DNA of 44,328 nt, from positions 1-44,328 of the forward strand of contig CAJXQX010000026.1 in NCBI GenBank assembly GCA_913058185.1. Reading direction: 5' to 3'. The notes beneath the pieces were generated by a model, which searched no databases, was not told the origin of the DNA, and saw only the letters and a list, made by a program, of their open reading frames with translations. This document shows, in pieces, positions 29,956 through 42,783 of this stretch. Each line of letters begins with the position of its first letter. The first letter of the stretch is position 1. The stretch is from an uncultured Verrucomicrobiota bacterium (GTDB lineage Bacteria; Verrucomicrobiota; Verrucomicrobiia; Opitutales; Opitutaceae). A program made the translations under genes and the position numbers.

Positions 29956-30687
29956 ATGCCTTCCCCAATTCGAGTTACCGTCTGGAACGAGTATCGGCAC
30001 GAGAAAGAAAACCCGAAAGTCGCCGCGGTTTATCCGGACGGAATTCATGTGGCGTTAGCCGGTTTTCTCGGAAACGAAGCCGATATCGAGGTGCGCACGG
30101 CGACTCTCGATGAAGCGGAATATGGATTAACCGAATCGGCGCTCGATGCCACCGATGTGTTGATCTGGTGGGGGCACAAAGCTCATGGCGATGTGGCCGA
30201 CGAGATCGCCGACCGCGTGGCGGCCCACGTGCACGCCGGTATGGGTTTCATCGCCCTGCATTCGGCGCATTATGCGAAGGCTTTTAAGCGTCTCATGGGT
30301 TCAACGTGTTCGTTGAAGTGGCGAGACGATGGAGAGAAAGAGCGGATATGGAACGTGCGTCCGTCTCATCCAATTGCGGCTGGGATCCCGGAGCATTTCG
30401 AACTCGAGCAAGAAGAAATGTATGGGGAGCCGTTCGGTATTCCGGAGCCGGATGAATTGATCTTTATCTCATGGTTCGCAGGCGGAGAGGTCTTCCGATC
30501 CGGTGCGACCTGGCAACGCAGCCACGGCCGAGTCTTTTACTTTCGACCCGGCCACGAAACCTTCCCAACTTACGCTAACCCCAATATTCAACGCGTGATC
30601 ATCAATGCTGTCCGCTGGGCGAAACCCACCGTCCGACTTCCTGATAAAGCACCCCGCGCAGATGCGCTCGAACCTCTTGCCCGATGA
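29956..30687 (+). CDS. ThuA-like (trehalose-utilisation type) protein
   Basis: A 243-residue protein of the ThuA class-I glutamine-amidotransferase-like fold. From ATG 29956 it reads [20 protein letters not shown]. Family marks are '[13 protein letters not shown]', '[16 protein letters not shown]', '[20 protein letters not shown]', '[20 protein letters not shown]' and '[20 protein letters not shown]'. Such proteins occur with sugar-utilisation genes in Planctomycetes-Verrucomicrobia; ThuA of rhizobia acts with ThuB in trehalose use. A TTG start at 29920 is possible but less likely. The stop overlaps the next ATG by four bases, so the following gene is translationally coupled to it. Confidence 0.86.
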
Positions 30688-30986
30688 AACGTTTCCCCTT
30701 TTCCCAAATACTTCCCGCGGCGTTGTTGAGCGCGGTTTCAGCCTCCGCCCTGACTATTGAGCTGGACTATACCCATGATTCAGTCGCGACGGATTTCTTT
30801 GGCACCTACGCCACCGCCAAGAGCGCGCTTGAACAAGCTGCATCCGATATCGGCGACGTTCTAAATTCCTCGATCGGGGCAATCACCTCAACTCAATCCG
30901 AAGGAGTTACTGGCACTTCTGGTTCCACCACAGTGACACTGGATTGGAAGTTTACCTATACGAATCCTTCGACGGGCGCTTTATAA
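30684..30986 (+). CDS. PEP-CTERM metalloprotease-like protein, N-terminal part before an in-frame stop
   Basis: Residues 1-22 form a signal peptide ('[16 protein letters not shown]'). The mature start '[15 protein letters not shown]' and '[16 protein letters not shown]' belong to the same domain as the downstream frame. The reading frame ends with TAA at 30984-30986, and the very same frame continues open for another 770 bases (E-L-T-T-F-T-A-L-A-D-T-I-K-I-F). A single substitution (for example TAT or TAC to TAA) therefore splits a 357-residue gene. Read-through, nonsense mutation or an assembly error are all possible. ATG 30684 overlaps the stop of the ThuA-like gene. Confidence 0.7.
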
Positions 30987-31007
30987 GAACTCACGACCTT
31001 CACGGCT

Positions 31008-31757
31008 TTGGCCGATACGATTAAGATCTTTGTGGGCGCCCGGAATTTGGAGGGATCCACCTTAGGCCAGGGCGGCCCGGGTGGAGCTGGGGTTTCTTTG
31101 GGAGTGAATGGGTTTGAGAGTGAGTGGGTTGCGGCAATGGCGGCTGCTGAGACGGCGTCGAACAGTGTTTTCCAACGCGGAAGTCAGGTTCCGATTATCG
31201 GAAATCTCAGTGACTCTTTTACAGTGGGCAGCACTACAGCGAATTACAGCCTGAACTACGGTCCAGTCGTAGGAAACCTATGGTTCGATGACGATACCGA
31301 CAACGCGGATGGAACTGATGATGCCACTCGGCTAGGGAATTACTGGCACTTTGACCACACCACCGCGGTGGCTGTAGGCAAAATCGATTTCTATTCGGTA
31401 GCGCTTCACGAGATCCTTCACGCGATGGGATTTGGCCTCGGCAACGAGTGGACTTCTAACGTATCTGGCACCATTTGGTTGGGCGCGGATAGTATTGCCG
31501 CGAATGGCACCGGTGTTGGGTTGGTCGACGTAAACGGTGCGCATCTCGCCACCAGTATCTCTAGCACCGCGCTCGAGGGTGGTGCAGCGCAGGATGTCGT
31601 GAGCATTTCAACGGGCGTCCGTAAGACTCTCACGGCACTCGATCTCGCGATTCTAACCGATCTGAATTATTCGGCGGTGCCGGAGCCCGCCCACGCGGCC
31701 GTTTTATTTGGGGCCTTGGCTCTAGGGCTCGTGGGCTCGCGTCGTCGTCGCGAGTGA
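31008..31757 (+). CDS. PEP-CTERM metalloprotease-like protein, C-terminal catalytic and sorting part
   Basis: It lies in the same frame as the preceding piece. The zinc motif 'HEILHAMGFG' (HExxHxxG) marks a metzincin-like protease domain, preceded by 'YWHFDHTTAVAVGKIDFYSV'. The C-terminus is a textbook PEP-CTERM exosortase signal: VPEP, a hydrophobic stretch ('AAVLFGALALGLVGS') and an Arg-rich end 'RRRRE'. The exported full protein would be sorted by an exosortase to the envelope. As it stands this part has no signal peptide, and codon 31008 is a TTG-type start with no ribosome-binding site, so it is probably not made alone. Confidence 0.72.
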   Translation: MADTIKIFVGARNLEGSTLGQGGPGGAGVSLGVNGFESEWVAAMAAAETASNSVFQRGSQVPIIGNLSDSFTVGSTTANYSLNYGPVVGNLWFDDDTDNADGTDDATRLGNYWHFDHTTAVAVGKIDFYSVALHEILHAMGFGLGNEWTSNVSGTIWLGADSIAANGTGVGLVDVNGAHLATSISSTALEGGAAQDVVSISTGVRKTLTALDLAILTDLNYSAVPEPAHAAVLFGALALGLVGSRRRRE

Positions 31758-31776: not shown

Positions 31777-32550
31777 TCAGCCGAGCTGCGCGAGAGCCTC
31801 ACGCGCTAGAGCTTTGACGGTTTCGTCGTGCTTTTCTCGATTAGGCATACTGAGCCCTTGCTCAAAAATGTTACGGGCTTTTTTGATCTCGCCGGCAGCT
31901 TGGTAGGCAAATCCTAGTTCCAAGAAGTGACTAAGGCTTTCGGGATCTAACGCGGTCGCTTTTTCGAGATGGTAGACGGCTGCCTCAATGGAGGCTTCCG
32001 GCAGCCCGCCGTAGAGTATTTTGGTGAAGAATCGGGTGATTGCCCCCAACTCGTCTACTTCGCGGTGCCAGCGGCCGAGCACATGGTGGGCCCACGCGTA
32101 ATCGGGATCGAGTTCGATTGCGCGCCGGGCGTCGGCCTTGATGATGCGTGCTGCTTCGACTTTGGCTTTGTTATCACCGAGTTGGGCAATCTTTCCGCGA
32201 GTGATGGCGAGAGACAGCACATTCACGGGATCATTGGGTTGTAGGTCTGTTGCCCGTTGGGAATAAGCTAGGGCTTGGTCGAGAAGCTGGCGTTGCTCGA
32301 TTTCACTAATCGCATCGATCGTGGAATCAGAATATTGGCGTGCTATCTTCTGTAGCACCTTGGGGTTTTTGGGCGCGAGTTTCTCTACTTGCAGCATCAA
32401 TTCTAATGCCTCGCTGGTCCGAAGATCGTTTTGGGCGATTAGCCCGGACTCATAAAGATTACCGGCCTCACCCTGTAAGCCAGCATCATTGGCGCGCGCG
32501 CCGTTCGACGTGAATAAGCTGAATAAGAGGATTACTCGAACGAGCGTCAT
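31777..32550 (-). CDS. Exported TPR-repeat protein (RMD-like)
   Basis: From ATG 32548-32550 the protein is 257 residues with a signal peptide (MTLVRVILLFSLFTSNGARA). The rest is helical TPR sequence: 'ALELMLQVEKLAPKNPKVLQ', 'ALAYSQRATDLQPNDPVNVL', 'ARRAIELDPDYAWAHHVLGR' and 'HLEKATALDPESLSHFLELG'. The layout resembles bacterial relatives of the RMD (regulator of microtubule dynamics) TPR family. It overlaps the end of the upstream methyltransferase gene by four bases (ATGA), which fixes the start and makes it the last gene of the lipid island. A periplasmic scaffold or chaperone role is inferred from position only. Confidence 0.78.
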   Translation of the reverse strand: MTLVRVILLFSLFTSNGARANDAGLQGEAGNLYESGLIAQNDLRTSEALELMLQVEKLAPKNPKVLQKIARQYSDSTIDAISEIEQRQLLDQALAYSQRATDLQPNDPVNVLSLAITRGKIAQLGDNKAKVEAARIIKADARRAIELDPDYAWAHHVLGRWHREVDELGAITRFFTKILYGGLPEASIEAAVYHLEKATALDPESLSHFLELGFAYQAAGEIKKARNIFEQGLSMPNREKHDETVKALAREALAQLG

Positions 32551-33554
32551 GGCTTCACAAATCGGTAGTGACTCACGAGCCATTCTTCGCCGTTCCGGTA
32601 ACCCCAGAGTTCGGCGCAACTCATGTAGAACACCCGCCAGTAGACCCACCATTTTTTCGTTTGATCGGCTCCGTATGTGGCAACGAGCAACGGTTCAATT
32701 TCGGCGCGATGCTGATCCATATTTTCCAACCAATGCTCGGCGGTTTGCTGGTAGTGGCGTCCATTGATTTTCCAATCCTGCTCCAGCTTCAAATCATCCT
32801 GAAACGCAGCGAGCAACTGATGTGAAGGCATTTGCCCGCCGGTGAAAAAATAGCGACTCATCCAGTCCGATTGGTCCCGCACCACAAAATGGTAAGAGAA
32901 TTTTTGGTGGGTGAAAATATGGACGAATAACTTGCCGCCAGATCGTAGCCAGCGGGCAACATTAGCTAGTAAAGATTGGTAGTTCTTCATGTGTTCGAAC
33001 ATCTCGATCGAGATTACGCGATCGAACGAAGAGGCCGTGATGTCGAAGTCGTTCATGTCGGCTGTTATGACTGTGACGTTATTCAGGCCGCGGGTGACGG
33101 CTTGCGCGTCGATGTGTTCCTTCTGGGTCCGGGAGTTCGATACCGCGGTGATCTTGGAATTTGGATACTTCGCCGCGAGGTAGAGCGTGATGGAGCCCCA
33201 CCCACAACCGAGTTCCAGAATGTCCTGGCCATCGGTGAATTCACCTCGTTCGGCGTAGAGGTCGAGCATCGCCGTTTCCGCCTGCTCGAGGGTTTCATTG
33301 CCGGATTCGTAGTAACAACCGGAATACTTTAAGCGAGGGCCGAGGCACTTGAGGTAAAACTCCGTCGGCACCTCGTAGTGCTGCTCGTTAGCCGTGGCCG
33401 TTTGTTCCGCGATTCCGCGATTCTTGAGGTTGGCCACATAGGCGGATTCATCGTAGCCTGATTCCTCTCTGAGGCGCTCGCCGAGCAGTTTGCGGATGCC
33501 CATCCGCACGGCGAAATCAGGCAGGAGGTTCTTTTCTAGCAGCGTATCAATCAT
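32547..33554 (-). CDS. CFA-synthase-like SAM-dependent methyltransferase (second copy)
   Basis: A 335-residue enzyme of the cyclopropane-fatty-acid synthase / coclaurine N-methyltransferase superfamily. 'EQHYEVPTEFYLKCLGPRLK' plus 'YSGCYY' is the substrate-site block, 'DILELGCGWGSITLYLA' the SAM motif, and 'FDRVISIEMFEHMKNYQSLL' the following catalytic-region motif. It is shorter and clearly diverged from the CFA synthase at 35320-36612. It may methylate a different acyl double bond or another lipid. It overlaps the upstream DUF1295 gene and the downstream TPR gene by four bases each. Confidence 0.88.
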   Translation of the reverse strand: MIDTLLEKNLLPDFAVRMGIRKLLGERLREESGYDESAYVANLKNRGIAEQTATANEQHYEVPTEFYLKCLGPRLKYSGCYYESGNETLEQAETAMLDLYAERGEFTDGQDILELGCGWGSITLYLAAKYPNSKITAVSNSRTQKEHIDAQAVTRGLNNVTVITADMNDFDITASSFDRVISIEMFEHMKNYQSLLANVARWLRSGGKLFVHIFTHQKFSYHFVVRDQSDWMSRYFFTGGQMPSHQLLAAFQDDLKLEQDWKINGRHYQQTAEHWLENMDQHRAEIEPLLVATYGADQTKKWWVYWRVFYMSCAELWGYRNGEEWLVSHYRFVKP

Positions 33555-34342
33555 GACGAAGCGCGGGGTGTTCCTGGGAAAAAGGCATTGGTCGTTTTCT
33601 GGTATTCACGGAATAGGTCCCCCTTGGATTTGAGCGAAGATTCTTCCGCCATGGGAACGCCGGTTTTATAGCGTAGAAGGTAGTAGATTGAGGCGGGCGC
33701 GATCAGGCCGATCCATCCCCATACAGAGCCCAGAGCGAAGATCCCGAAGCCGACCCAGATACACCATTCGAAGAAGTAATTAGGATGTCGGCTGTAGTGC
33801 CATAGCCCGACGTTGCAGACTTGGCCTTTGTTTGCGGGCTTGCGGCGAAAAGCCGCAAGTTGTCCATCGGCGACTGATTCGCCGCAAAGGGCTAGGAAAC
33901 AGATTGCGGTGCCGACTATTTCCCAATGCGAAAAATAGGTCACTGCGTTGTGCACGGGGAGAAGGAAAGGCAACGAAAGCACGACCACCGCGAGGGCTTG
34001 CAGCTGGAAAAACCCAAACATCATCGTCCCGAAGTTATCTTTCCAATCGATTCGCAGCTGTTGGTAGCGGCTGTCCTCTACCGGGTGATGACTCATCACG
34101 CGTTTATAGAGATGGGAGCCGAGTCGAATACTCCATGCGCTCGCGAGCGACGCGAGCACGAGTTTCCGCATACTCCATCCGTTGCCCGCGAATGCGTAGA
34201 ACCAAGCCACTCCCGTAAAGGCATAAGACCAAACGACGTCGACGATGCCGTAGTTGTTCATGCGTCGGCAGAGTAAGAAGGTGAGTGAGAACCAAACCAT
34301 TAAGAGGCCGGTCATCGACAATATCATCAGTGGGTGGCTCAT
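33551..34342 (-). CDS. DUF1295 membrane protein (steroid 5-alpha-reductase-like fold)
   Basis: A 263-residue polytopic membrane protein with about six spans. 'NNYGIVDVVWSYAFTGVAWF' and the C-terminal 'GLWHYSRHPNYFFEWCIWVG' are typical of DUF1295, which is related to the steroid reductase/isoprenylcysteine methyltransferase fold. Members are regular companions of CFA synthase and the FAD amine-oxidase-like gene, and may reduce or modify acyl chains; no reaction has been assigned with certainty. It has ATGA overlaps with DUF2062 upstream and with the methyltransferase downstream. Confidence 0.86.
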   Translation of the reverse strand: MSHPLMILSMTGLLMVWFSLTFLLCRRMNNYGIVDVVWSYAFTGVAWFYAFAGNGWSMRKLVLASLASAWSIRLGSHLYKRVMSHHPVEDSRYQQLRIDWKDNFGTMMFGFFQLQALAVVVLSLPFLLPVHNAVTYFSHWEIVGTAICFLALCGESVADGQLAAFRRKPANKGQVCNVGLWHYSRHPNYFFEWCIWVGFGIFALGSVWGWIGLIAPASIYYLLRYKTGVPMAEESSLKSKGDLFREYQKTTNAFFPGTPRASS

Positions 34343-34863
34343 ACTGTATCTCGGTTGGTTCGGTGGGCAGCCAGCCGGCTAATTATGGGTTTCAAAATGA
34401 GGTATAGAGCCCCGAACAGTAACGGTCCCGTGAGGCTCCATGCTGTAAAGGCGTGGATTCCGGCCCAGCCGAACCTGGATAGGAATTCCGCTACGGAAAG
34501 TTCAGTAAATGACTGCACCATTTCGATCACCGAAAAACGGTGCTCGCTGGCGCCCCAGATCCATTCTCCCACGCGGACGTAAACTAGGATCATGACCAAG
34601 TGCACGGGGGTAAGCAGTTGGTTGAGCGTTTGCATAATCGGCTGATTGAGTCGGAGCGGTAGGCCGACCGAAAGATTCAGCAACCACGTAAACCCGAGAA
34701 AGGGAAACATGGAGCAGACGGTGCCCAGTGAGAGGGTGAAAGTAATCTTACCTGGCGTGACTCCTTGAGTCAGCTGCCTCGCTATGGGATCGACTAGGCG
34801 GCGTTGCCAGAAACCGCGACGAGGCACCGTAACCTCAGCAGATGTAGCAGCTGCGGCGCTCAT
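34339..34863 (-). CDS. DUF2062 membrane protein
   Basis: From ATG 34861-34863 the protein is 174 residues (M-S-A-A-A-A-T-S-A-E-V). The frame is open further upstream, but the extra sequence is Arg/His-rich shadow of the preceding gene. The DUF2062 block is visible: 'QGVTPGKITFTLSLGTVCSM', 'FPFLGFTWLLNLSVGLPLRL' and 'NQPIMQTLNQLLTPVHL', with about three membrane spans. The family's function is unknown. Four-base overlaps with both neighbours fix its ends and show it is part of the same transcript. Confidence 0.85.
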   Translation of the reverse strand: MSAAAATSAEVTVPRRGFWQRRLVDPIARQLTQGVTPGKITFTLSLGTVCSMFPFLGFTWLLNLSVGLPLRLNQPIMQTLNQLLTPVHLVMILVYVRVGEWIWGASEHRFSVIEMVQSFTELSVAEFLSRFGWAGIHAFTAWSLTGPLLFGALYLILKPIISRLAAHRTNRDTV

Positions 34864-35273
34864 GCCAAAAGTGGACCTGCTCCGAGTAAATATGCGGCGA
34901 CTCCCAAGATTATGAATGCAATGGGAAGGGCAATTTTCCCTTCTCGACGCACGGTGAATACTTCTCGGAGGCGATCGATATGATCGATACGGAAGAGTTC
35001 GATGACCATATAGATAGCCATCGCGAAATTCCCCCACATCAGCACCACCAACAGCCACAGCATGCGGGCACCGGTCGATCGCTCTTTCCAGGCCACCCAG
35101 ACGTAGAATGTGATGAAAGCGAAGTAGGCATCGAACAGGGTCGCGATGAACCATGGGTTGGTGAATACCCCCCGCGGGATCCCAAAGATCGGCTGCTCCG
35201 AGCTCGCCCAAACAATAAGCGAAGACATAGCCAGGAAGATGCCGATGAAAAGCGCACGTAGAAACCAGAGCAT
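34860..35273 (-). CDS. DUF1475-like small membrane protein
   Basis: A 137-residue protein with about four membrane spans. 'SEQPIFGIPRGVFTNPWFIA' followed by 'TLFDAYFAFITFYVWVAWKE' is the recognisable DUF1475 pattern (Asp-Ala-Tyr and Trp-Val-Ala-x-Lys-Glu). The family occurs in bacteria and plants and its function is unknown. Its stop overlaps the DUF2062 start. It begins 46 bases after the CFA synthase stop. Confidence 0.75.
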   Translation of the reverse strand: MLWFLRALFIGIFLAMSSLIVWASSEQPIFGIPRGVFTNPWFIATLFDAYFAFITFYVWVAWKERSTGARMLWLLVVLMWGNFAMAIYMVIELFRIDHIDRLREVFTVRREGKIALPIAFIILGVAAYLLGAGPLLA

Positions 35274-35319
35274 TTTATGAGTTACCGAAGTTTGGATCGC
35301 CCATCGATACGGAAGAGTA

Positions 35320-36612
35320 TCAGCCCGCGAAGTTATTGGCCCGCATATGCAATGTCTGGACCACGGAGATATTCTTCATGGCAAAGGCTGCTTCGCAATA
35401 GCGCAGGTAGTAGTCCCACTTACGGATAAAACGGTCGTCGAAGCCGAGCTCACGCACCTTCTCGATCCGGCTTTCGAATGCTTTTTGCCACTGACGCAGG
35501 GTCAGGGTGTAGTCGAAACCGTAGTCTTCCATGCCGCGGAGAACGAAACCACCGGACTTTGCCAGTTGGTCGTTCACACGATTGGTTGAGAGCAGCAACG
35601 AACCGGGAAAGACGTGTTTTTGGATAAAGTCGACGCCCTTGCGGAACGAGTCATAGCGGCCGTCTGGACAAGTAATGAACTGGAGCGCGAGCCGGCCCTT
35701 AGGTTTTAGCAAACGGGACAACGAATCCGTGAAAGCCGGCAGGTATTGATGCCCGAGTGCCTCCATCATTTCGATCGAAACGATCTTGTCGAACTGGCCT
35801 TCGATGTCGCGGAAATCACGCAACTGCACGTCGATTCGATCGGACAATCCTGCTTCAGCGATACGCACCACGGCAAGATCAAGTTGCTCCTGGGAGATGG
35901 TCACGGTGGTGACCTTGCAGCCGTATTTCTTGGCGGCGTGCATCGACCAACCACCCCAGCCCGTGCCGATCTCAAGCACGTGATCGTCGGGCTGCAGATT
36001 AAGCTTCTGGCAAAGCGCTTCGTTCTTCGCCGCTTGGGCTTCGGCGAGCGGAATATCTGCGGTCGCGAAGTGAGCGCCCGAATACATCATCGAAGGATCG
36101 AGGAAGAGGGCGAAGAATTCGTTGGAGAGATCGTAGTGCTCGCTGATGTTGCGACGTGCGGTGGTGCGATTGTTGGGTCGCAAGAGGTGGCCGACGCGGT
36201 TTGCTGCGCGGAAAAGATTAACGGCGCGATCTTTCCAACTTTGGCGTTGAGAGCCGGAAAGGGTCGGGGCGTTTTCGACGTTGTTGATAAACCACGCGAT
36301 CACGGCGGCCAGGTCCGGGGTGTCCCAGTCACCATCAACGAAGCTTTCTCCAAAGCCGACATCACCAGCCAGCACACATTTTTTGAAGAACGCCTCGCGC
36401 TTCACGCGGATGCAAGCCGTCCCCGAAATGCCTTGGGCGAGATTGGAGTGCTTGCCCGGCTGGCCGAGCTGAATATTGCCACCTTCAGGAAGCTTCAGGA
36501 GGAGCGAACCGCGGTCCATGCCTTCGAGGGTTTGTATAACCAAGCGTCGACTGAGACTCAAGCGGCCTTCGGCGGACTTGCTGGGCGAAAGGGTGGCGGT
36601 GTTAGAATTCAT
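35320..36612 (-). CDS. cfa: Cyclopropane-fatty-acyl-phospholipid synthase
   Basis: From ATG 36610-36612 the protein is 430 residues; the open frame upstream adds Pro/His-rich residues that are not family sequence. It transfers a methylene from SAM to a cis double bond of phospholipid acyl chains. The N-terminal lipid-binding domain contains 'ACIRVKREAFFKKCVLAGDV' and 'GFGESFVDGDWDTPDL'. Then come the substrate block 'ISEHYDLSNEFFALFLDPSM' and 'MYSGAHF', the SAM motif 'VLEIGTGWGGWSMHAAKKYG', and the catalytic-region 'DKIVSIEMMEALGHQYLPAF'. Located between DUF1365 (19-base gap) and DUF1475, it is the core of the lipid island. Confidence 0.93.
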   Translation of the reverse strand: MNSNTATLSPSKSAEGRLSLSRRLVIQTLEGMDRGSLLLKLPEGGNIQLGQPGKHSNLAQGISGTACIRVKREAFFKKCVLAGDVGFGESFVDGDWDTPDLAAVIAWFINNVENAPTLSGSQRQSWKDRAVNLFRAANRVGHLLRPNNRTTARRNISEHYDLSNEFFALFLDPSMMYSGAHFATADIPLAEAQAAKNEALCQKLNLQPDDHVLEIGTGWGGWSMHAAKKYGCKVTTVTISQEQLDLAVVRIAEAGLSDRIDVQLRDFRDIEGQFDKIVSIEMMEALGHQYLPAFTDSLSRLLKPKGRLALQFITCPDGRYDSFRKGVDFIQKHVFPGSLLLSTNRVNDQLAKSGGFVLRGMEDYGFDYTLTLRQWQKAFESRIEKVRELGFDDRFIRKWDYYLRYCEAAFAMKNISVVQTLHMRANNFAG

Positions 36613-36631
36613 ATGAAGGGAAAATGGTGGG

Positions 36632-37525
36632 TTATGATTGGTGGGCTTTGGACAGCGGTGTAGCCGGGTCCTGGACATCACGGATAGAAGGGTGAGGGCG
36701 ATAGAGTTCAGTTTGCTCGGCGGCTCGCTCTTTTTTGCCGAACCACGTCACGCGCTTCATCCATAGTCGTAGGGCGTGCCAGTGGATCAGGAAAATCACC
36801 CGCAGAGTGAGGAGCTGATATTTGAAAACGAACCACGCCAAAGCGCCGTCAGTGAGGGGCCGCGCCGGTCCTGAGATGGAGGTCGCGAGATTTCGACGTT
36901 CGCCTTCGTAGTCGTCGATTTGCACCGCTAACCGGTCGGAGGAGGGACGGAGTCGGAAATTGAAATCGATATTTACGTCCGAGAAAGGTGAGACATAGAA
37001 GTTTTTGTTCACGCGATGCTCAAACCCGTCTGGGCCTAGCATGACTTTGGTGAGCAAAAAGGGCTTCATTTCGTGGAACGTATTGGTCACTTCGACAATC
37101 GCAGCAATAAGGTTCCCAGCGGAGTCGCGAATGTAGTAAAACGAGACGGGATTGAACCGGTAGCCAAACATACGCGGCAGCGTCACCAGTTCGACTCGGG
37201 CGGAATCATCTACGGCGACGTCATACACCGTGAGGTAGCGTATCACGCGATCCTTCAGTGAGGGCCTATCCTCCTCCAAGTAACCATAATGGTTACTTTG
37301 GGCTGAAGTGGCCGGATTGTGAATCGGTTCGGTTAAGGGGAGGAAATCACGTTGCCGGAGGCTAAACAGATTGCCCCGATCGATGGATAGGAGCCGATGA
37401 CGGTTGTCGATTTCGGCGAGTTCATCCAGATCGACCGACATCATGAACAAGCGGTAGACGAACCGGTGAGCTTTGGGAAAAAAGCGCGCGTGCATGACAT
37501 TGCATTCGTAGATTTTCGACCGCAT
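36632..37525 (-). CDS. DUF1365 protein of the CFA cluster
   Basis: A 297-residue protein of DUF1365 (COG3496). It opens 'SKIYECNVMHARFFPKAHRF' with 'VYRLFMMSVDLDELAEI', and has 'LPRMFGYRFNPVSFYYIRDS' and 'AIVEVTNTFHEMKPFLL', all diagnostic. In many Proteobacteria the trio FAD amine-oxidase-like / DUF1365 / CFA synthase is under a singlet-oxygen-responsive ECF sigma factor (RpoE-ChrR); no ChrR or ECF gene is in this window. Its biochemical step is unknown; a role in acyl-lipid modification follows from this constant company. Confidence 0.9.
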   Translation of the reverse strand: MRSKIYECNVMHARFFPKAHRFVYRLFMMSVDLDELAEIDNRHRLLSIDRGNLFSLRQRDFLPLTEPIHNPATSAQSNHYGYLEEDRPSLKDRVIRYLTVYDVAVDDSARVELVTLPRMFGYRFNPVSFYYIRDSAGNLIAAIVEVTNTFHEMKPFLLTKVMLGPDGFEHRVNKNFYVSPFSDVNIDFNFRLRPSSDRLAVQIDDYEGERRNLATSISGPARPLTDGALAWFVFKYQLLTLRVIFLIHWHALRLWMKRVTWFGKKERAAEQTELYRPHPSIRDVQDPATPLSKAHQS

Positions 37526-37675
37526 GAGTGAGGTAAATCATGGTGCGGATCTATTTTAAGGCAAATGGTCCTGCCAGAAAGTTAGACAATAACTAGACGA
37601 AGATGTTAATCAAAATGGTAACAATTAGATTAAATCACTCTACTACAGGTAAATAAAGTCTATCCGATCAACTGC
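37526..37675 (-). promoter_or_regulatory. AT-rich spacer inside the lipid island, probable internal promoter
   Basis: This 150-base gap is the largest in the island and is much more AT-rich than the flanking genes (AAAATGGTAACAATTAGATT at 37613-37632). On the minus strand it would drive DUF1365-cfa and the genes after it. A TGATC element lies at its upstream end (37670-37666, minus), which is the -35 core of ChrR-type ECF promoters, but I cannot pair it with a convincing -10. Confidence 0.3.
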
Positions 37676-38962
37676 CTAATGAGTCCAAGGATCCTCGCCA
37701 AGGAGGAGCTCGCAGAGCTGAACAGCGCTCCAGAGGCCGTCTTCGTGGAATCCGTAGCGTTGGTATGCGCCGACGAAATAGGTATTAGTGGTGCCGGTGG
37801 CGTCCGCGTTGAGCCCGGCGATTTCGTCCTGGGCCTTAAGAGCGGCGAGGTCGAATAGCGGGTGGGCATATTTGATGGTCTGCTGGACCTTTTCGGGTTC
37901 GATATCGGCGGCGCGATTGATTGAGACGAAAAACTGCTCCGTGTCGCTGACGCCTTGCAGGGAGTTCATCCAGTAATGCGTGGCAGGATCGATGCGACCT
38001 TCGGGCCCCCGCACGAGTTGGTAGTTCCAGCTGGACCAGGCCCGCTTGGTTTTAGGCATGACCGTGGTATCGGTGTGCAGGGTGGCTGTATTGGACTGGA
38101 ACTGAAAACAGCGTAGAATCCGGGACTCGTCGGGGGTTGGGTTGACCAACAGTTTGAGCGCCACATCTGCGTGAGTCGCCATGATGACTTGGTCGAATGA
38201 TTCAGCTTGGCCCTGAGCGGTCATGACAATGACACGCGAACCCGCCCGCACGATTCTGGTAGCGGCGTGATTGGTACGGATCCGATCGTGGAAGGGCTCG
38301 GTGATGCGTTTGACGTATTCGCGACTGCCGCCATCGAGGGTCCACCATTGGTGTTGGGTGCTGAGGCCGAGAAACCCGTGGTTATGAAAAAAGCGCAGCA
38401 GGCTCGATGCCGGAAATTGCAGCATCTTTTCCGGTGGCGTGCTCCACACCGCCGAACTCATGGGCACGAGATAGAGATTGAAGAAGTCCTCCCCGTAAGC
38501 GCCGGCGCGCACGTAGTCGGCCAGAGTGACCTCGCGCAGGCTGGGATCATCGAGGGCCTTGATCGCGTCACTGTTGAAGCGGTTGACCGCGAGCAACATT
38601 TTGATGAAGCGCGGGCTGAAGATATTTTTGCGCTGAGCGAACAGGTGATTGAGCGAGGTGCCGCTCCACTCGAGACCCGTTTCGTCTTCCTTCACCGAGA
38701 AGGACATCGTCGTTTTTTTAGTCGGCACCTTGAATTGCTCGAACAGCCGACAAAGATGCGGGTAGGTCTCTTGATTGAAGACCATAAAACCGGTGTCGAT
38801 CGGCACGGTCCGTCCGGTCGGAGCCTCTTTCGCATCCACGGTGTTGGCGTGCCCTCCAACGTGGGCGTTGGACTCGAAGACCGTGACGTTGTGGTGCCGG
38901 TGCAGAAAATGAGCACAGCCCAAACCGGATATGCCGGAGCCGATGATGGCGATGCGGGCCAT
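37676..38962 (-). CDS. FAD/NAD(P)-binding amine-oxidase-like protein of the CFA cluster
   Basis: A 428-residue flavoprotein (COG2907-like). The N-terminal dinucleotide loop is 'ARIAIIGSGISGLGCAHFL' followed by the FAD motif 'VTVFESNAHVGGHANTVD'. The middle has 'PIDTGFMVFNQETYPHLCRL', and the C-terminus has the second FAD contact, 'NTYFVGAYQRYGFHEDGL'. Related proteins in fatty-acid clusters act as acyl-chain oxidoreductases; the furan-fatty-acid enzyme UfaD of Rhodobacter is a flavoprotein partner of a CFA-like methylase, which makes a similar role here plausible but unproven. It begins 10 bases after the end of the desaturase gene. Confidence 0.88.
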   Translation of the reverse strand: MARIAIIGSGISGLGCAHFLHRHHNVTVFESNAHVGGHANTVDAKEAPTGRTVPIDTGFMVFNQETYPHLCRLFEQFKVPTKKTTMSFSVKEDETGLEWSGTSLNHLFAQRKNIFSPRFIKMLLAVNRFNSDAIKALDDPSLREVTLADYVRAGAYGEDFFNLYLVPMSSAVWSTPPEKMLQFPASSLLRFFHNHGFLGLSTQHQWWTLDGGSREYVKRITEPFHDRIRTNHAATRIVRAGSRVIVMTAQGQAESFDQVIMATHADVALKLLVNPTPDESRILRCFQFQSNTATLHTDTTVMPKTKRAWSSWNYQLVRGPEGRIDPATHYWMNSLQGVSDTEQFFVSINRAADIEPEKVQQTIKYAHPLFDLAALKAQDEIAGLNADATGTTNTYFVGAYQRYGFHEDGLWSAVQLCELLLGEDPWTH

Positions 38963-38972
38963 TCTAGCGGAG

Positions 38973-40103
38973 TCAGCCGTTTTGGCTGGAGCTGTCGCGG
39001 TCGACTTTTAGCCCAGAAATATCCTGGTGTGTGGCGGGTGATTCCGTGTCCTCGGCCGAGGTCATGTGAGCGGCGTTGACTGCGCCCACTGCTAACGCAG
39101 CGGCGGTCGGCATCACTTTTTTTAACGATGAGTGCACGTGAGTCGGTTCGCTCTTAGCGGCGGCGGCGACTGAGTCCAGATGTTCGGCGCGCATGCCTTC
39201 GTCGAGCACGGATTGGGGAACCTTTTTCAAACCCCAGATCAGACCCGTCCAGGAAAGCATCTTCAGGCCGTAGTAGGTCGGGTCGATTTCCCACCAGTAG
39301 AAACCGTTACGGGTCGAGCTTTGATAGCGGTGGTGATTGTTGTGCCAGCCCTCGCCGAGGCAAATGATGGCCAAAATGAAGCTGTTCCGTGAATCGTCGT
39401 CGGTTTTGAAGCGCCGCTTGCCCATAAGGTGGGCCAGAGAGTTGATACAGGAGGTGCCGTGAAACAACGCTGTCGTGCTGACGAAGAAGCCCCAGACGAG
39501 TAGCTGTGGACCGGTTACCCCGAGTCCGGGGGCCCAAGTTGCCAATCCCGCGCCGAGTCCGTAGATCGCCGAGGCAAAAAGCACCGGCACGATGAGATCG
39601 AAGCGGTTGAGGAAGACCAATTCGGGATACTTGGTGAGGTCCTTGATTTGGGAGTAGTCGGTGGGAAAATTGCGTTTGCTGGTGATCCAACCGATATGCG
39701 CCCACCAAAAACCGTGCACCACGGGGGAGTGAGCATCGTGCTCGTCGTCACTATGCTGGTGATGGTGGCGATGGTGGCCGGCCCACCATAATGGACCGCG
39801 TTGGGCGGCGGTGCCGCCCCAGACTGCGAGCAGGAATTGACCGATGCGCGAAGTGCGGTAGGTCTTGTGCGAAAAGTAGCGGTGGTAGATCCCGGTGACC
39901 GCAAACATGCGTACGAAATACAGTGCGACCGCGAAGACGACCGCGAATGGACTCCAGCCGACCCAAATCAGGCCTAGACAGCCAAAATGAAGCATGGAAA
40001 ACGGAATGACGCGCACCCAATCGACTTTGTCGGGCTGTTGCCGAAGTTTCTCCCGACCTTCGGGACAATAGTCGGCGTCGATTGATTGAACGATCGACGT
40101 CAT
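38973..40103 (-). CDS. Acyl-CoA/acyl-lipid delta-9-type fatty-acid desaturase
   Basis: From ATG 40101-40103 the protein is 376 residues. The three His boxes are textbook: 'GIYHRYFSHKTYRT', 'WWAGHHRHHHQHSDDEHDAH' and 'GEGWHNNHHRYQSSTRNGF'. Four membrane spans flank them. The C-terminal 75 residues ('SVAAAAKSEPTHVHSSLKKV' onwards) are an Ala/Ser-rich extension not found in the family core. As first gene of the island it would supply the cis double bond that the CFA enzymes use. Its GC content matches its neighbours, unlike the desaturase at 8387-9427. Confidence 0.92.
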   Translation of the reverse strand: MTSIVQSIDADYCPEGREKLRQQPDKVDWVRVIPFSMLHFGCLGLIWVGWSPFAVVFAVALYFVRMFAVTGIYHRYFSHKTYRTSRIGQFLLAVWGGTAAQRGPLWWAGHHRHHHQHSDDEHDAHSPVVHGFWWAHIGWITSKRNFPTDYSQIKDLTKYPELVFLNRFDLIVPVLFASAIYGLGAGLATWAPGLGVTGPQLLVWGFFVSTTALFHGTSCINSLAHLMGKRRFKTDDDSRNSFILAIICLGEGWHNNHHRYQSSTRNGFYWWEIDPTYYGLKMLSWTGLIWGLKKVPQSVLDEGMRAEHLDSVAAAAKSEPTHVHSSLKKVMPTAAALAVGAVNAAHMTSAEDTESPATHQDISGLKVDRDSSSQNG

Positions 40104-40561: not shown

Positions 40562-41446
40562 GTGAACGATTCGACTGATTTTCTGATCTATCAACCGGTG
40601 CCCCCAGATGCAGATGTTTGGGGTATGGCGGTGGTAGCTGGTGGCTGCGCAAGCGTGTCTCCGGGGGCTGAATATCCTCCGGTGGGCCATGGGGAGGGCC
40701 ATGCATTCACGTGGGAGAATGGTCGGGTGCTGGGAGCGTTTCAGGTGGTGGGCGTGACTGAGGGAATCGGCGAATTTGAATCAAAAGTAACCGGACGAGT
40801 ATCTGTGCGGGCGGGCACCGTGATGCTACTTTTTCCCGGGGTGTGGCATCGCTATAGGCCGAATGCTCGAACGGGTTGGTCGGAGAGTTGGATCGAACTG
40901 GTGGGAACCACTGCTGATCGTTTGTTGGCCGCAGGGGTGATTAGCCCGGAACGAGCCGTTGTTAGACTGTCAGAAGTTAGTGCGTTTAGTGAATTGATGG
41001 GCGGAATTCACGCGCGGCTCCGGCAACCCTCACAAGGATATGATGCAGAAACGGGTGCACTCGCATTGCAGTTGATGAGTCGATTGGCCTCGGATCGACG
41101 AGGCGGCGCCGAACCGTCGCCATTGGACGCGGCGATCGCACGGGCGGAGCGGATATTGCTCGAACATTTGCACGATCCTCCAGCGATGCCTGAAGTGGCA
41201 GAAAAAGTAGGATTGGCCTATTCTTACTTCCGTCGGGAATTCAAGCGCCGCACCGGTTTTTCACCCCGACTTTATCTCCAGCGACTGCGCTTGGATAAAG
41301 CCCGACGAATGCTCGGAACGACCCCGGACTCGATTCAGGCCATTGCGGATCGGCTGGGGTTCAATTCTGCGTTTCATTTATCGGCCTCATTCAAAAAAGA
41401 GTTTGGGGTTTCGCCTCAGGGGTGGCGGCGATCCACCTCCAAATAA
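40562..41446 (+). CDS. AraC-family transcriptional regulator
   Basis: A 294-residue regulator starting at GTG 40562. The N-terminal cupin-like sensor (1-160) includes 'GRVSVRAGTVMLLFPGVWHR' plus 'YRP', typical of sugar-sensing AraC proteins. The C-terminal 100 residues carry the two HTH motifs: 'AMPEVAEKVGLAYSYFRREF' with 'KRRTGFSPRLYLQRLRLDKA', then 'SIQAIADRLGFNSAFHLSAS' with 'FKKEFGVSPQGWRR'. It faces away from the lipid island and is followed 56 bases later by an MFS transporter gene. Either could be its target; carbohydrate sensing is suggested by the cupin type. Confidence 0.92.
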   Translation: MNDSTDFLIYQPVPPDADVWGMAVVAGGCASVSPGAEYPPVGHGEGHAFTWENGRVLGAFQVVGVTEGIGEFESKVTGRVSVRAGTVMLLFPGVWHRYRPNARTGWSESWIELVGTTADRLLAAGVISPERAVVRLSEVSAFSELMGGIHARLRQPSQGYDAETGALALQLMSRLASDRRGGAEPSPLDAAIARAERILLEHLHDPPAMPEVAEKVGLAYSYFRREFKRRTGFSPRLYLQRLRLDKARRMLGTTPDSIQAIADRLGFNSAFHLSASFKKEFGVSPQGWRRSTSK

Positions 41447-41502
41447 ATGTCTACGCGCTCCTAGCTTGCGAAGGTTAGACGGGTGAGTTGCACTCGCCAC
41501 GC

Positions 41503-42783
41503 ATGGACGATTCCTCCGCGCCACTCGAGTCCCCCGCGTCGAGCCCCCCTATTCCCGTTAAACGGCGGGAAGTCTTTGGCTGGTGTTGTTTCGATTTCGC
41601 TAACTCGGCCTTCACGACGATCGTGATAACGGTCGTTGGGTTGCCCTACTTCAAAGTAGTGGTGGCAGAAGGAAATCCGGCGGCGGAAGGTTGGTGGGGC
41701 ACGATGCTCGCGTTGTCGCAGGTCGGGGTGTTGTTACTCGCTCCTCTGATTGGAGTGGTGGCCGATGTGCACGCCAGTAAGAAGCGATATCTCGCGATCT
41801 CCGCGTTGATATGCTCGGTGGCGACGGTGTTATTGTTTGGCGTCGGAGCCGGGCAGGTTTGGCTGATGCTGGGACTCGTATTGGTCGCCAACTTCGCGTT
41901 CTCCACCAGTGAGAACATTTGCTCGGCCTTTCTGCCGAAAATCAGCACCCCAGCAAACGCGGGCCGTATATCCGGCTACGGTTGGTCGTTCGGGTATCTA
42001 GGCGGTTTGCTCAGTTTGGTGATTGCCCTGGTGATTATCAGCAGCGGCGACGGGCGCGCCCATTGGTCTTTCGCGGCGACGGGATTGTTCTTTTTTCTAG
42101 CCAGCCTACCCACCCTATTACTCCTCAAAGAGCGAGCCACCCCGCGTCCGCTGGCGCCGGGGCAGCGGTATTTACGCGTGGCCTGGCAGCAATTTGCGGA
42201 TATGAAGCGCGAGCTGCCGCAGCACCGCATGCTCGTGCTGTTCTTTGTGGCGATGACTTTTTATTTGGCGGGTCTGATGGCCGTGGTTGGGTTTGCGGCG
42301 GGTTATGCGACCGAGGTTCTCGCCATGGAACAGGAGCAAATTATCGGGCTCTTTGCCGTGCTGCAAATCGCCGGAGTGGCGGGCGCGTTTGGATTTGGTT
42401 TTTTGCAGGATCGCACCGGCCCTAAACTTCCGTTGGCGGCGGCGCTTGTGATTTGGATCGTGGCCTGCCTGTGGGCTTCGCGATGTGAGACCGTGCGCGA
42501 GTTCTACCTGATCGGTGTGCTGGCCGGAATCGGAATGGGCTCGTTGCAGTCGGCGAGTCGCGCGGTGGTTTCCACGCTTACGCCGGCGGGACGATCGGGA
42601 GAGTTTTTTGGCTACTGGGGATTTTTTGCCAAGCTGGCTGCCGTGATCGGCACTTTCGTTTTTGGTAATCTTGTTTCCCTGACGGACTATCGAATCGCGA
42701 TTGCGGCTAACACGGGATTTTTTGTTATCGGACTGCTGATTCTACTCCCACTCAAGTTACGTTCCAGCGTCAAAGACACTTGA
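41503..42783 (+). CDS. UMF1/Atg22-like MFS transporter
   Basis: A 426-residue membrane transporter starting at ATG 41503 (M-D-D-S-S-A-P-L); a TTG 15 bases upstream is less likely. The N-terminal block 'EVFGWCCFDFANSAFTTIVI' is diagnostic of the UMF1 (vacuole effluxer Atg22-like) branch of the major facilitator superfamily, and about 12 spans follow. 'DVHASKKRYLAISALICSVA' is the loop 2-3 MFS motif region. Substrates in bacteria are unknown; relatives in yeast release amino acids from the vacuole. Downstream lies a sigma-54 promoter within 18 bases of the stop, so this gene and the next one are controlled separately. Confidence 0.9.
   Translation: MDDSSAPLESPASSPPIPVKRREVFGWCCFDFANSAFTTIVITVVGLPYFKVVVAEGNPAAEGWWGTMLALSQVGVLLLAPLIGVVADVHASKKRYLAISALICSVATVLLFGVGAGQVWLMLGLVLVANFAFSTSENICSAFLPKISTPANAGRISGYGWSFGYLGGLLSLVIALVIISSGDGRAHWSFAATGLFFFLASLPTLLLLKERATPRPLAPGQRYLRVAWQQFADMKRELPQHRMLVLFFVAMTFYLAGLMAVVGFAAGYATEVLAMEQEQIIGLFAVLQIAGVAGAFGFGFLQDRTGPKLPLAAALVIWIVACLWASRCETVREFYLIGVLAGIGMGSLQSASRAVVSTLTPAGRSGEFFGYWGFFAKLAAVIGTFVFGNLVSLTDYRIAIAANTGFFVIGLLILLPLKLRSSVKDT

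Follow-up and report, generated by a model that had tools for sequence, protein, structure and literature searches.

A Verrucomicrobiota gene cluster predicted to encode the synthesis of mono- and dimethyl furan fatty acids, with a linked reductase-like DUF1295 protein

Four enzymes of furan fatty acid synthesis have been characterized in Rhodobacter sphaeroides and Rhodopseudomonas palustris (PMC7380195). UfaM transfers a methyl group to an 18:1 chain; the flavoprotein UfaD, which resembles phytoene desaturases, forms a methyl-diene; UfaO (a DUF1365 protein) forms the furan using O2; and FufM adds a second methyl group. In R. sphaeroides three genes are enough to produce the monomethyl furan; the dimethyl furan was obtained in vitro with FufM and S-adenosylmethionine (SAM), and FufM showed no significant methylation of 18:1 (PMC7380195). 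In Chlamydomonas, singlet oxygen induces a SAK1-dependent set of genes that includes CFA1, CFA2, DUF1365 and DUF1295, CFA2 being annotated in another table as a coclaurine N-methyltransferase (PMC4067076), and in plants UFAMD1, UFAO1 and FUFM1, homologues of UfaM plus UfaD, of UfaO and of FufM, have been proposed to make the furan acids of lipid droplets (PMC10940516). Here we describe a locus of an uncultured bacterium from the family Opitutaceae (phylum Verrucomicrobiota) in which homologues of UfaM, UfaD, UfaO and FufM are all encoded in one cluster. The window, i.e. the whole stretch of DNA analysed (44,328 nucleotides, nt), covers positions 1 to 44,328 of the contig CAJXQX010000026.1 of the assembly GCA_913058185.1, a genome of 4.09 Mb in 159 contigs that is 99% complete. 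The cluster differs from the R. sphaeroides and R. palustris genes by a desaturase gene in front, by added genes for DUF1475, DUF2062 and tetratricopeptide repeat (TPR) proteins, and by a genome in which the regulator ChrR was not found. The Chlamydomonas genes, in contrast, belong to a eukaryote and bear separate gene numbers, with the furan products described as under investigation (PMC8491031), whereas the plant set includes one protein similar to both UfaM and UfaD and forms no operon (PMC10940516).

The cluster comprises nine open reading frames on the minus strand, reading from position 40103 to 31777, all assigned to Pfam families above the curated cut-offs in the order PF00487, PF01593, PF07103, PF02353, PF07343, PF09835, PF06966, PF02353 and TPR; an initial annotation, made from the letters of the window, had given the same nine genes in the same order and place. 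The first is a membrane fatty acyl desaturase (38973..40103; 66.9 bits to PF00487), followed by homologues of UfaD, a putative FAD-dependent desaturase of methylated fatty acyl chains (37676..38962; 80.4 bits to Amino_oxidase), of UfaO, the presumed O2-dependent former of the furan ring (36632..37525; 233.7 bits to PF07103), and of UfaM, a predicted SAM-dependent acyl C-methyltransferase (35320..36612; 273.5 bits to PF02353). Then come a short DUF1475-related protein (34860..35273), a DUF2062 membrane protein (34339..34863; 44.9 bits to PF09835), a DUF1295 membrane protein of the superfamily of steroid 5-alpha-reductases and isoprenylcysteine carboxyl methyltransferases (ICMTs) (33551..34342; 217.1 bits to PF06966), a FufM homologue, probably the SAM-dependent methyltransferase of the furan ring (32547..33554), and the TPR protein (31777..32550; 44 bits to TPR_11). 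The last five genes are indeed chained by ATGA-type overlaps, as had been claimed, with 4 nt shared at each of the four junctions and hence on both sides of the DUF2062 gene; the preceding gaps measure 10 nt (desaturase–UfaD), 150 nt (UfaD–UfaO), 19 nt (UfaO–UfaM) and 46 nt (UfaM–DUF1475).

Named reference genomes were obtained from a scan with the R. palustris cytochrome c2, and eight of them, seven from Rhodopseudomonas and one from Bradyrhizobium, were searched. Each contains one DUF1365 gene, and seven of the eight contain one gene 46–48% identical to the second methyltransferase of the window. In the four genomes whose loci were read, the DUF1365 gene lies within a UfaD–UfaO–UfaM run (L144, L146, L148, L150), and the FufM-like gene overlaps a preceding DUF1295 gene by 4 nt. 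The proteins of the window are 37% (UfaD, 431 columns), 34% (UfaO, 257 columns), 36% (UfaM), 38% (DUF1295) and 47% (FufM) identical to those of R. palustris XCP, which likewise has DUF1295 directly before FufM; XCP differs in having two loci on different contigs (L144 and L143), whereas the window has one, with its UfaD, UfaO and UfaM homologues encoded together like those of the XCP run.

The two methyltransferases both score above the cut-off of PF02353, the family of cyclopropane fatty acid (CFA) synthases, which is what one would expect if both made cyclopropane rings and the other proteins of the cluster modified them. Several observations make such a cyclopropane fatty acid cluster highly improbable. 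In a tree of 92 sequences, the two solved CFA synthases stand apart from both proteins. All 29 UfaM-type proteins, including those of the window and of Rhodopseudomonas, form one clade (support 0.989), separate from the solved CFA synthases and from four further Rhodopseudomonas paralogues. The bicarbonate ligands of cyclopropane synthase are, as we take it, C139, E239, H266 and Y317 (E. coli numbering); at these positions the window UfaM has Gly, Glu, Gln and Tyr and the window FufM Gly, Glu, His and Tyr, neither reproducing the ligand set. The Gln at the H266 position is shared by all 29 UfaM-type proteins, whereas the two solved CFA synthases and the four Rhodopseudomonas paralogues have His. 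These paralogues were taken as RPA3082-like, and deletion of RPA3082 brought no significant change (PMC7380195). The first CFA-type protein, a UfaM homologue, is by its residues not a cyclopropane synthase.

The second CFA-type protein is, by similarity, a homologue of FufM, the maker of dimethyl furans, and not the unexplained addition that it had initially seemed: it groups with Rhodopseudomonas FufM in the tree. Its best matches among solved structures are a coclaurine N-methyltransferase (6gkv, 267 bits) and a pavine N-methyltransferase (226 bits), against 101 bits for the CFA synthase 6bqc. An identification as a plant-type coclaurine N-methyltransferase was rejected, as His occupies the H266 position in the window protein and in 55 of 55 FufM-type proteins, whereas the plant coclaurine and pavine enzymes have Glu there and pair with each other (support 0.996). 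The Arabidopsis protein AT4G33110 is presumably also related to coclaurine N-methyltransferases. Its identity to FufM has been given as 37.87% (PMC10940516).

As to the other core enzymes, the desaturase carries the His boxes HRYFSH, HHRHHH and HNNHH (read by eye) and likely supplies the cis-monoene substrate. The HPGG haem motif of cytochrome-b5-fused desaturases is absent from its sequence, which does not fit the label "front-end desaturase", if that class was meant. The UfaD homologue has seven Pfam matches, Amino_oxidase, NAD_binding_8 and DAO among them, none to FAD_binding_4. The BfaAB-type pair for 10-methyl fatty acids presumably combines an FAD_binding_4-type partner with a CFA-like enzyme, and 10-methyl synthesis was set aside because the flavoprotein lacks that match. 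For UfaO, a profile search against solved structures returned only a chance-level match (sperm lysin, E 0.014), and a structure model built without alignments was uninformative (mean predicted local distance difference test, pLDDT, 43).

To see how far these genes travel together, we searched 240 genomes of the window's phylum, counting FufM at E <= 1e-40 and DUF1295 as strong at E <= 1e-40. FufM was found in 43 genomes, DUF1365 in 54, strong DUF1295 in 49 (60 at E <= 0.001) and a strong DUF1475 relative in 19, one marginal genome (G002) having been dropped. DUF1365 is present in all 43 genomes with FufM, and none of the 186 genomes lacking it has FufM; it also accompanies strong DUF1295 in 48 of 49 genomes (the exception being G146). 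Eleven genomes have DUF1365 without FufM, seven of them with DUF1295. Fisher tests of co-occurrence, in this sample and in the second one below, treat related genomes as independent and serve as a guide only. Besides the window, 42 neighbourhoods were read. UfaD lies in the same stretch as FufM at 32 of the 43 loci, the genomes of the other 11 having DUF1365 elsewhere, and DUF1295 lies on the same strand no more than 300 nt upstream of FufM at 28 of the 43 loci (40 of 55 overall). All nine families occur together at five of the 43 loci (the window, L033, L036, L038 and L041) and many of them recur at further FufM loci, so the nine-gene order is not a matter of chance.

The association extends to Pseudomonadota. 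In a second sample, of 190 genomes of the class to which R. palustris belongs (DUF1295 at E <= 1e-20, FufM at E <= 1e-40), DUF1365 was found in 93 genomes, DUF1295 in 26 and FufM in eight. All eight FufM genomes have DUF1295, which adjoins FufM in five; DUF1365 is present in seven of the eight and in 22 of the 26 DUF1295 genomes. Since 71 genomes have DUF1365 without DUF1295, the latter is not needed wherever UfaO is found; FufM, however, seldom occurs without DUF1295, which is present in 49 of the 51 FufM genomes of both samples (exceptions G050 and G087). We also examined eight plasmid loci (seven annotated and one, L079, unannotated) from 44 plasmid records with a FufM match; picked by that match, they inform on the order of the genes, not on how often it occurs. 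The seven annotated ones carry the same genes together, and DUF1295 precedes FufM by no more than 300 nt at all eight, as it does at all four Rhodopseudomonas and Bradyrhizobium loci. Two Acinetobacter plasmids (NZ_CP053948.1 and NZ_CP015616.1) carry desaturase, UfaD, UfaO, UfaM, DUF1295 and FufM in the same order as in the window; the desaturase at the head is thus not unique to the window. The Acinetobacter clusters differ in having no DUF1475, DUF2062 or TPR matches and in being flanked by genes for a lipocalin, a histidine kinase and a response regulator. On plasmids of Rhizobium, Mesorhizobium, Shinella and Burkholderia, FufM is followed by a small uncharacterised protein or a lipocalin, and sigma and anti-sigma factor genes lie near the clusters, with ChrR in the first three genera. 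Four FufM loci of one family of the window's phylum (f22; L068, L071, L072 and L151) likewise encode relatives of the lipocalin and the NTF2/SnoaL-like protein seen in proteobacterial clusters, with Pfam matches checked at L068, and these may represent an alternative group of accessories around the same core. The families thus co-occur in many genomes of the phylum and of Pseudomonadota, which disposes of the objection, foreseen in the initial annotation, that they might be neighbours only in this genome.

Homology, the UfaM clade with its residue signature, co-occurrence and gene order are what the window itself offers, the reactions having been shown elsewhere (PMC7380195). On this basis the island very probably encodes, at a single locus, a pathway by which membrane lipids acquire mono- and dimethyl furan fatty acids, in keeping with the earlier comparison with the Ufa genes, and we infer that this pathway runs in the organism of the window. 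The desaturase would provide a cis-monoene, to which UfaM would add a methyl group from SAM; UfaD would desaturate the product to a conjugated methyl-diene, UfaO would close the furan ring with O2 (by our arithmetic, diene plus O2 giving furan plus H2O balances without a reductant), and FufM would add the second methyl group. The resulting furan would trap singlet oxygen. A small pathway, defined by experiment, for lipids that quench singlet oxygen would thereby be extended to the window's phylum, and its complete dimethyl branch would be gathered at a single locus. Our search brought up no report of furan acids from Verrucomicrobiota; the five papers containing both terms are, judging by titles, diet, serum, gut or rumen studies.

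Several points weigh against this interpretation. The compared strain is R. palustris XCP and the experimentally tested one CGA009, so that orthology to the tested enzymes is something we infer. The UfaM and FufM labels were set by best profile score before the residues were counted. The node uniting the window and Rhodopseudomonas FufM has a support of 0.359, and the separation of the FufM clade from the two plant N-methyltransferases is weak (0.555). R. rhenobacensis, the eighth of the named genomes, has UfaO and no FufM-like gene, and one alphaproteobacterial genome (G272, C2:15239-17016) has adjacent DUF1295 and FufM genes and no DUF1365 match, which may mean that the pair has another role or that a contig is missing. 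The fatty acids listed for Opitutaceae, of which iso-C15:0, C16:0, C16:1 w5c and others are the major ones, include no furan acid (PMC5303756), a point that would count only if the strains concerned carry the island. For the window organism and the compared genomes the furan product is a prediction from genes. The identities to R. palustris UfaD, UfaO and UfaM, at just 34–37%, would also suit a recruitment of Ufa-like enzymes to a different methyl-branched or oxidised lipid, for instance one ending at the methyl-diene or built on iso-branched chains, with no furan acid formed; three accessory genes fall outside any tested pathway known to us, and the substrate chains may differ. We nevertheless consider this alternative unlikely, since the cluster unites representatives of all four activities known from experiment and has kept FufM, whose methylation of 18:1 was not significant (PMC7380195).

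Within the furan pathway reading, the DUF1295 protein calls for a separate explanation. It passes the Pfam profile Steroid_dh (PF02544; 28.0 bits, cut-off 22.6) and does not reach the cut-off of ICMT. Profile matches to solved structures are weak: the ICMT 4a2n (E 9.3e-5), the steroid reductases 7c83 (0.0037) and 7bw1 (0.12) and a sterol C14 reductase (0.25), 9l5r being among these weak matches. The better score of 4a2n than of 7c83 would suit an ICMT-like methyltransferase using SAM, in place of a reductase, as would, more faintly, the 21 bits obtained with the NCBIfam model isopcys_mtase, far under its cut-off of 160. The residues, however, render that assignment doubtful: the motif RHPNYF, with Asn188 invariant in 20 of 20 sequences, resembles PNYLGE (7c83) and RHINYLGD (sterol C14 reductase) more than the RHPMY and RHPSY of the two ICMTs shown. 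D159 is also invariant; of the 20 sequences, 18 have Arg or Lys at the R166 position and 18 have E192, R. palustris XCP and L045 having Gln there instead. These four residues line up, as we take it, with the NADPH contacts of SRD5A2. A structure model built without alignments was uninformative (mean pLDDT 51), and a scan of viral contigs found no relatives.

We regard DUF1295 as most likely a reductase acting on a furan-related lipid. Its position beside FufM could, alternatively, be a mere operon habit, the protein working elsewhere in lipid or quinone metabolism. Among 14 control genomes, two have DUF1295 and lack DUF1365 (Lactococcus lactis and, at a looser threshold only, Methanosarcina acetivorans), as do four of the 26 genomes in which DUF1295 was found in the alphaproteobacterial sample; with DUF1295 in all but two of the 51 FufM genomes and UfaO in all but one of the 49 strong DUF1295 genomes of the window's phylum, we hold this alternative to be the less likely one. 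The published reconstitution of the pathway names no DUF1295, and we therefore place the putative reductase after synthesis. Furans react with singlet oxygen to give a reactive keto-enal (PMC8888431), and when cells meet singlet oxygen their furan acid 9M5-FuFA is quickly lost (PMC7380195). That a gene for an enone-type reductase adjoins one for a furan methylase thus suggests clearing or recycling of oxidised furan. One specific version, which we consider rather speculative and on balance improbable, is that DUF1295 is an NADPH-dependent enedione reductase closing a membrane furan repair cycle: singlet oxygen would convert the dimethyl furan to a reactive, electrophilic unsaturated 1,4-dicarbonyl, whose double bond would be reduced by DUF1295 as a relative of steroid-enone reductases, and the saturated 1,4-dione could re-close to the furan by losing water. 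If true, the furan lipid would be regenerated after quenching and not sacrificed, and the same DUF1295 pairing would operate in green algae, where singlet oxygen co-induces DUF1295. Among the matches listed in our literature search, none linked DUF1295 by name to furan acids. A strain deleted for RPA0923 is listed in the R. palustris work (PMC7380195); by its number RPA0923 is a neighbour of fufM, and it is perhaps the DUF1295 gene.

The remaining three genes of the cluster are best seen as candidate accessories, so that the cluster would consist of four known enzymes by homology, a strongly linked reductase-like partner and these three proteins. The match of the DUF1475 protein to PF07343 (36.9 bits) is above the cut-off, in agreement with the family first assigned; it spans only positions 157–228 of the 236-position model, and the protein, with about four hydrophobic segments by hydropathy, is thus a short relative of the family. 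All 19 genomes of the phylum sample with a strong match to this relative have FufM and UfaO. With the window included, a DUF1475 relative lies in the stretch at 18 of the 43 FufM loci, DUF2062 at 19 and TPR relatives at 11, not always adjacent to FufM (in L037, DUF1475 is 13 kb away). DUF1295 in two genome samples, and DUF1475 in the window's phylum, thereby gain a tightly linked biochemical setting in which their functions become testable. A profile search of DUF1475 against solved structures found no match, and its equation with DUF2177, a small membrane protein of the proteobacterial clusters, was discarded (hhalign probability 0.4% with three DUF2177 sequences). The TPR protein, described initially as exported, has a signal-like start by eye; a hydropathy scan gave no segment above the threshold there. 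For the suggested transport or assembly of a new lipid we found no evidence.

Control of this locus as part of an ECF11/ChrR singlet-oxygen regulon, the ChrR type having been mentioned initially for related genes of other bacteria, is not supported: ChrR (TIGR02451) was not found in the genome, nor in the window or the 42 neighbourhoods. Sigma-factor-like frames occur in eight of these neighbourhoods and not in the window, and sigma-70 promoter-like sites show no excess (three observed against 4.9 in shuffles). An AraC-type regulator gene (40562-41446, plus strand) is divergent from the cluster; it was dropped as a candidate regulator, with a weak match in only one of 40 neighbourhoods searched (L058). 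At the other end lies a plus-strand gene (30684-31757) with a PEP-CTERM-like tail (VPEPAHAAVLFGALALGLVGSRRRRE) and a stretch, HEILHAMGF, resembling a zinc-protease motif by eye; it contains one in-frame stop after residue 100, which may denote a pseudogene, a sequencing error or readthrough, and its second part has no Pfam match. Beyond the AraC-type gene, positions 41488-42783 (plus strand) encode a transporter of the major facilitator superfamily, whose top Pfam match is ATG22, vacuole effluxer like (150 bits).

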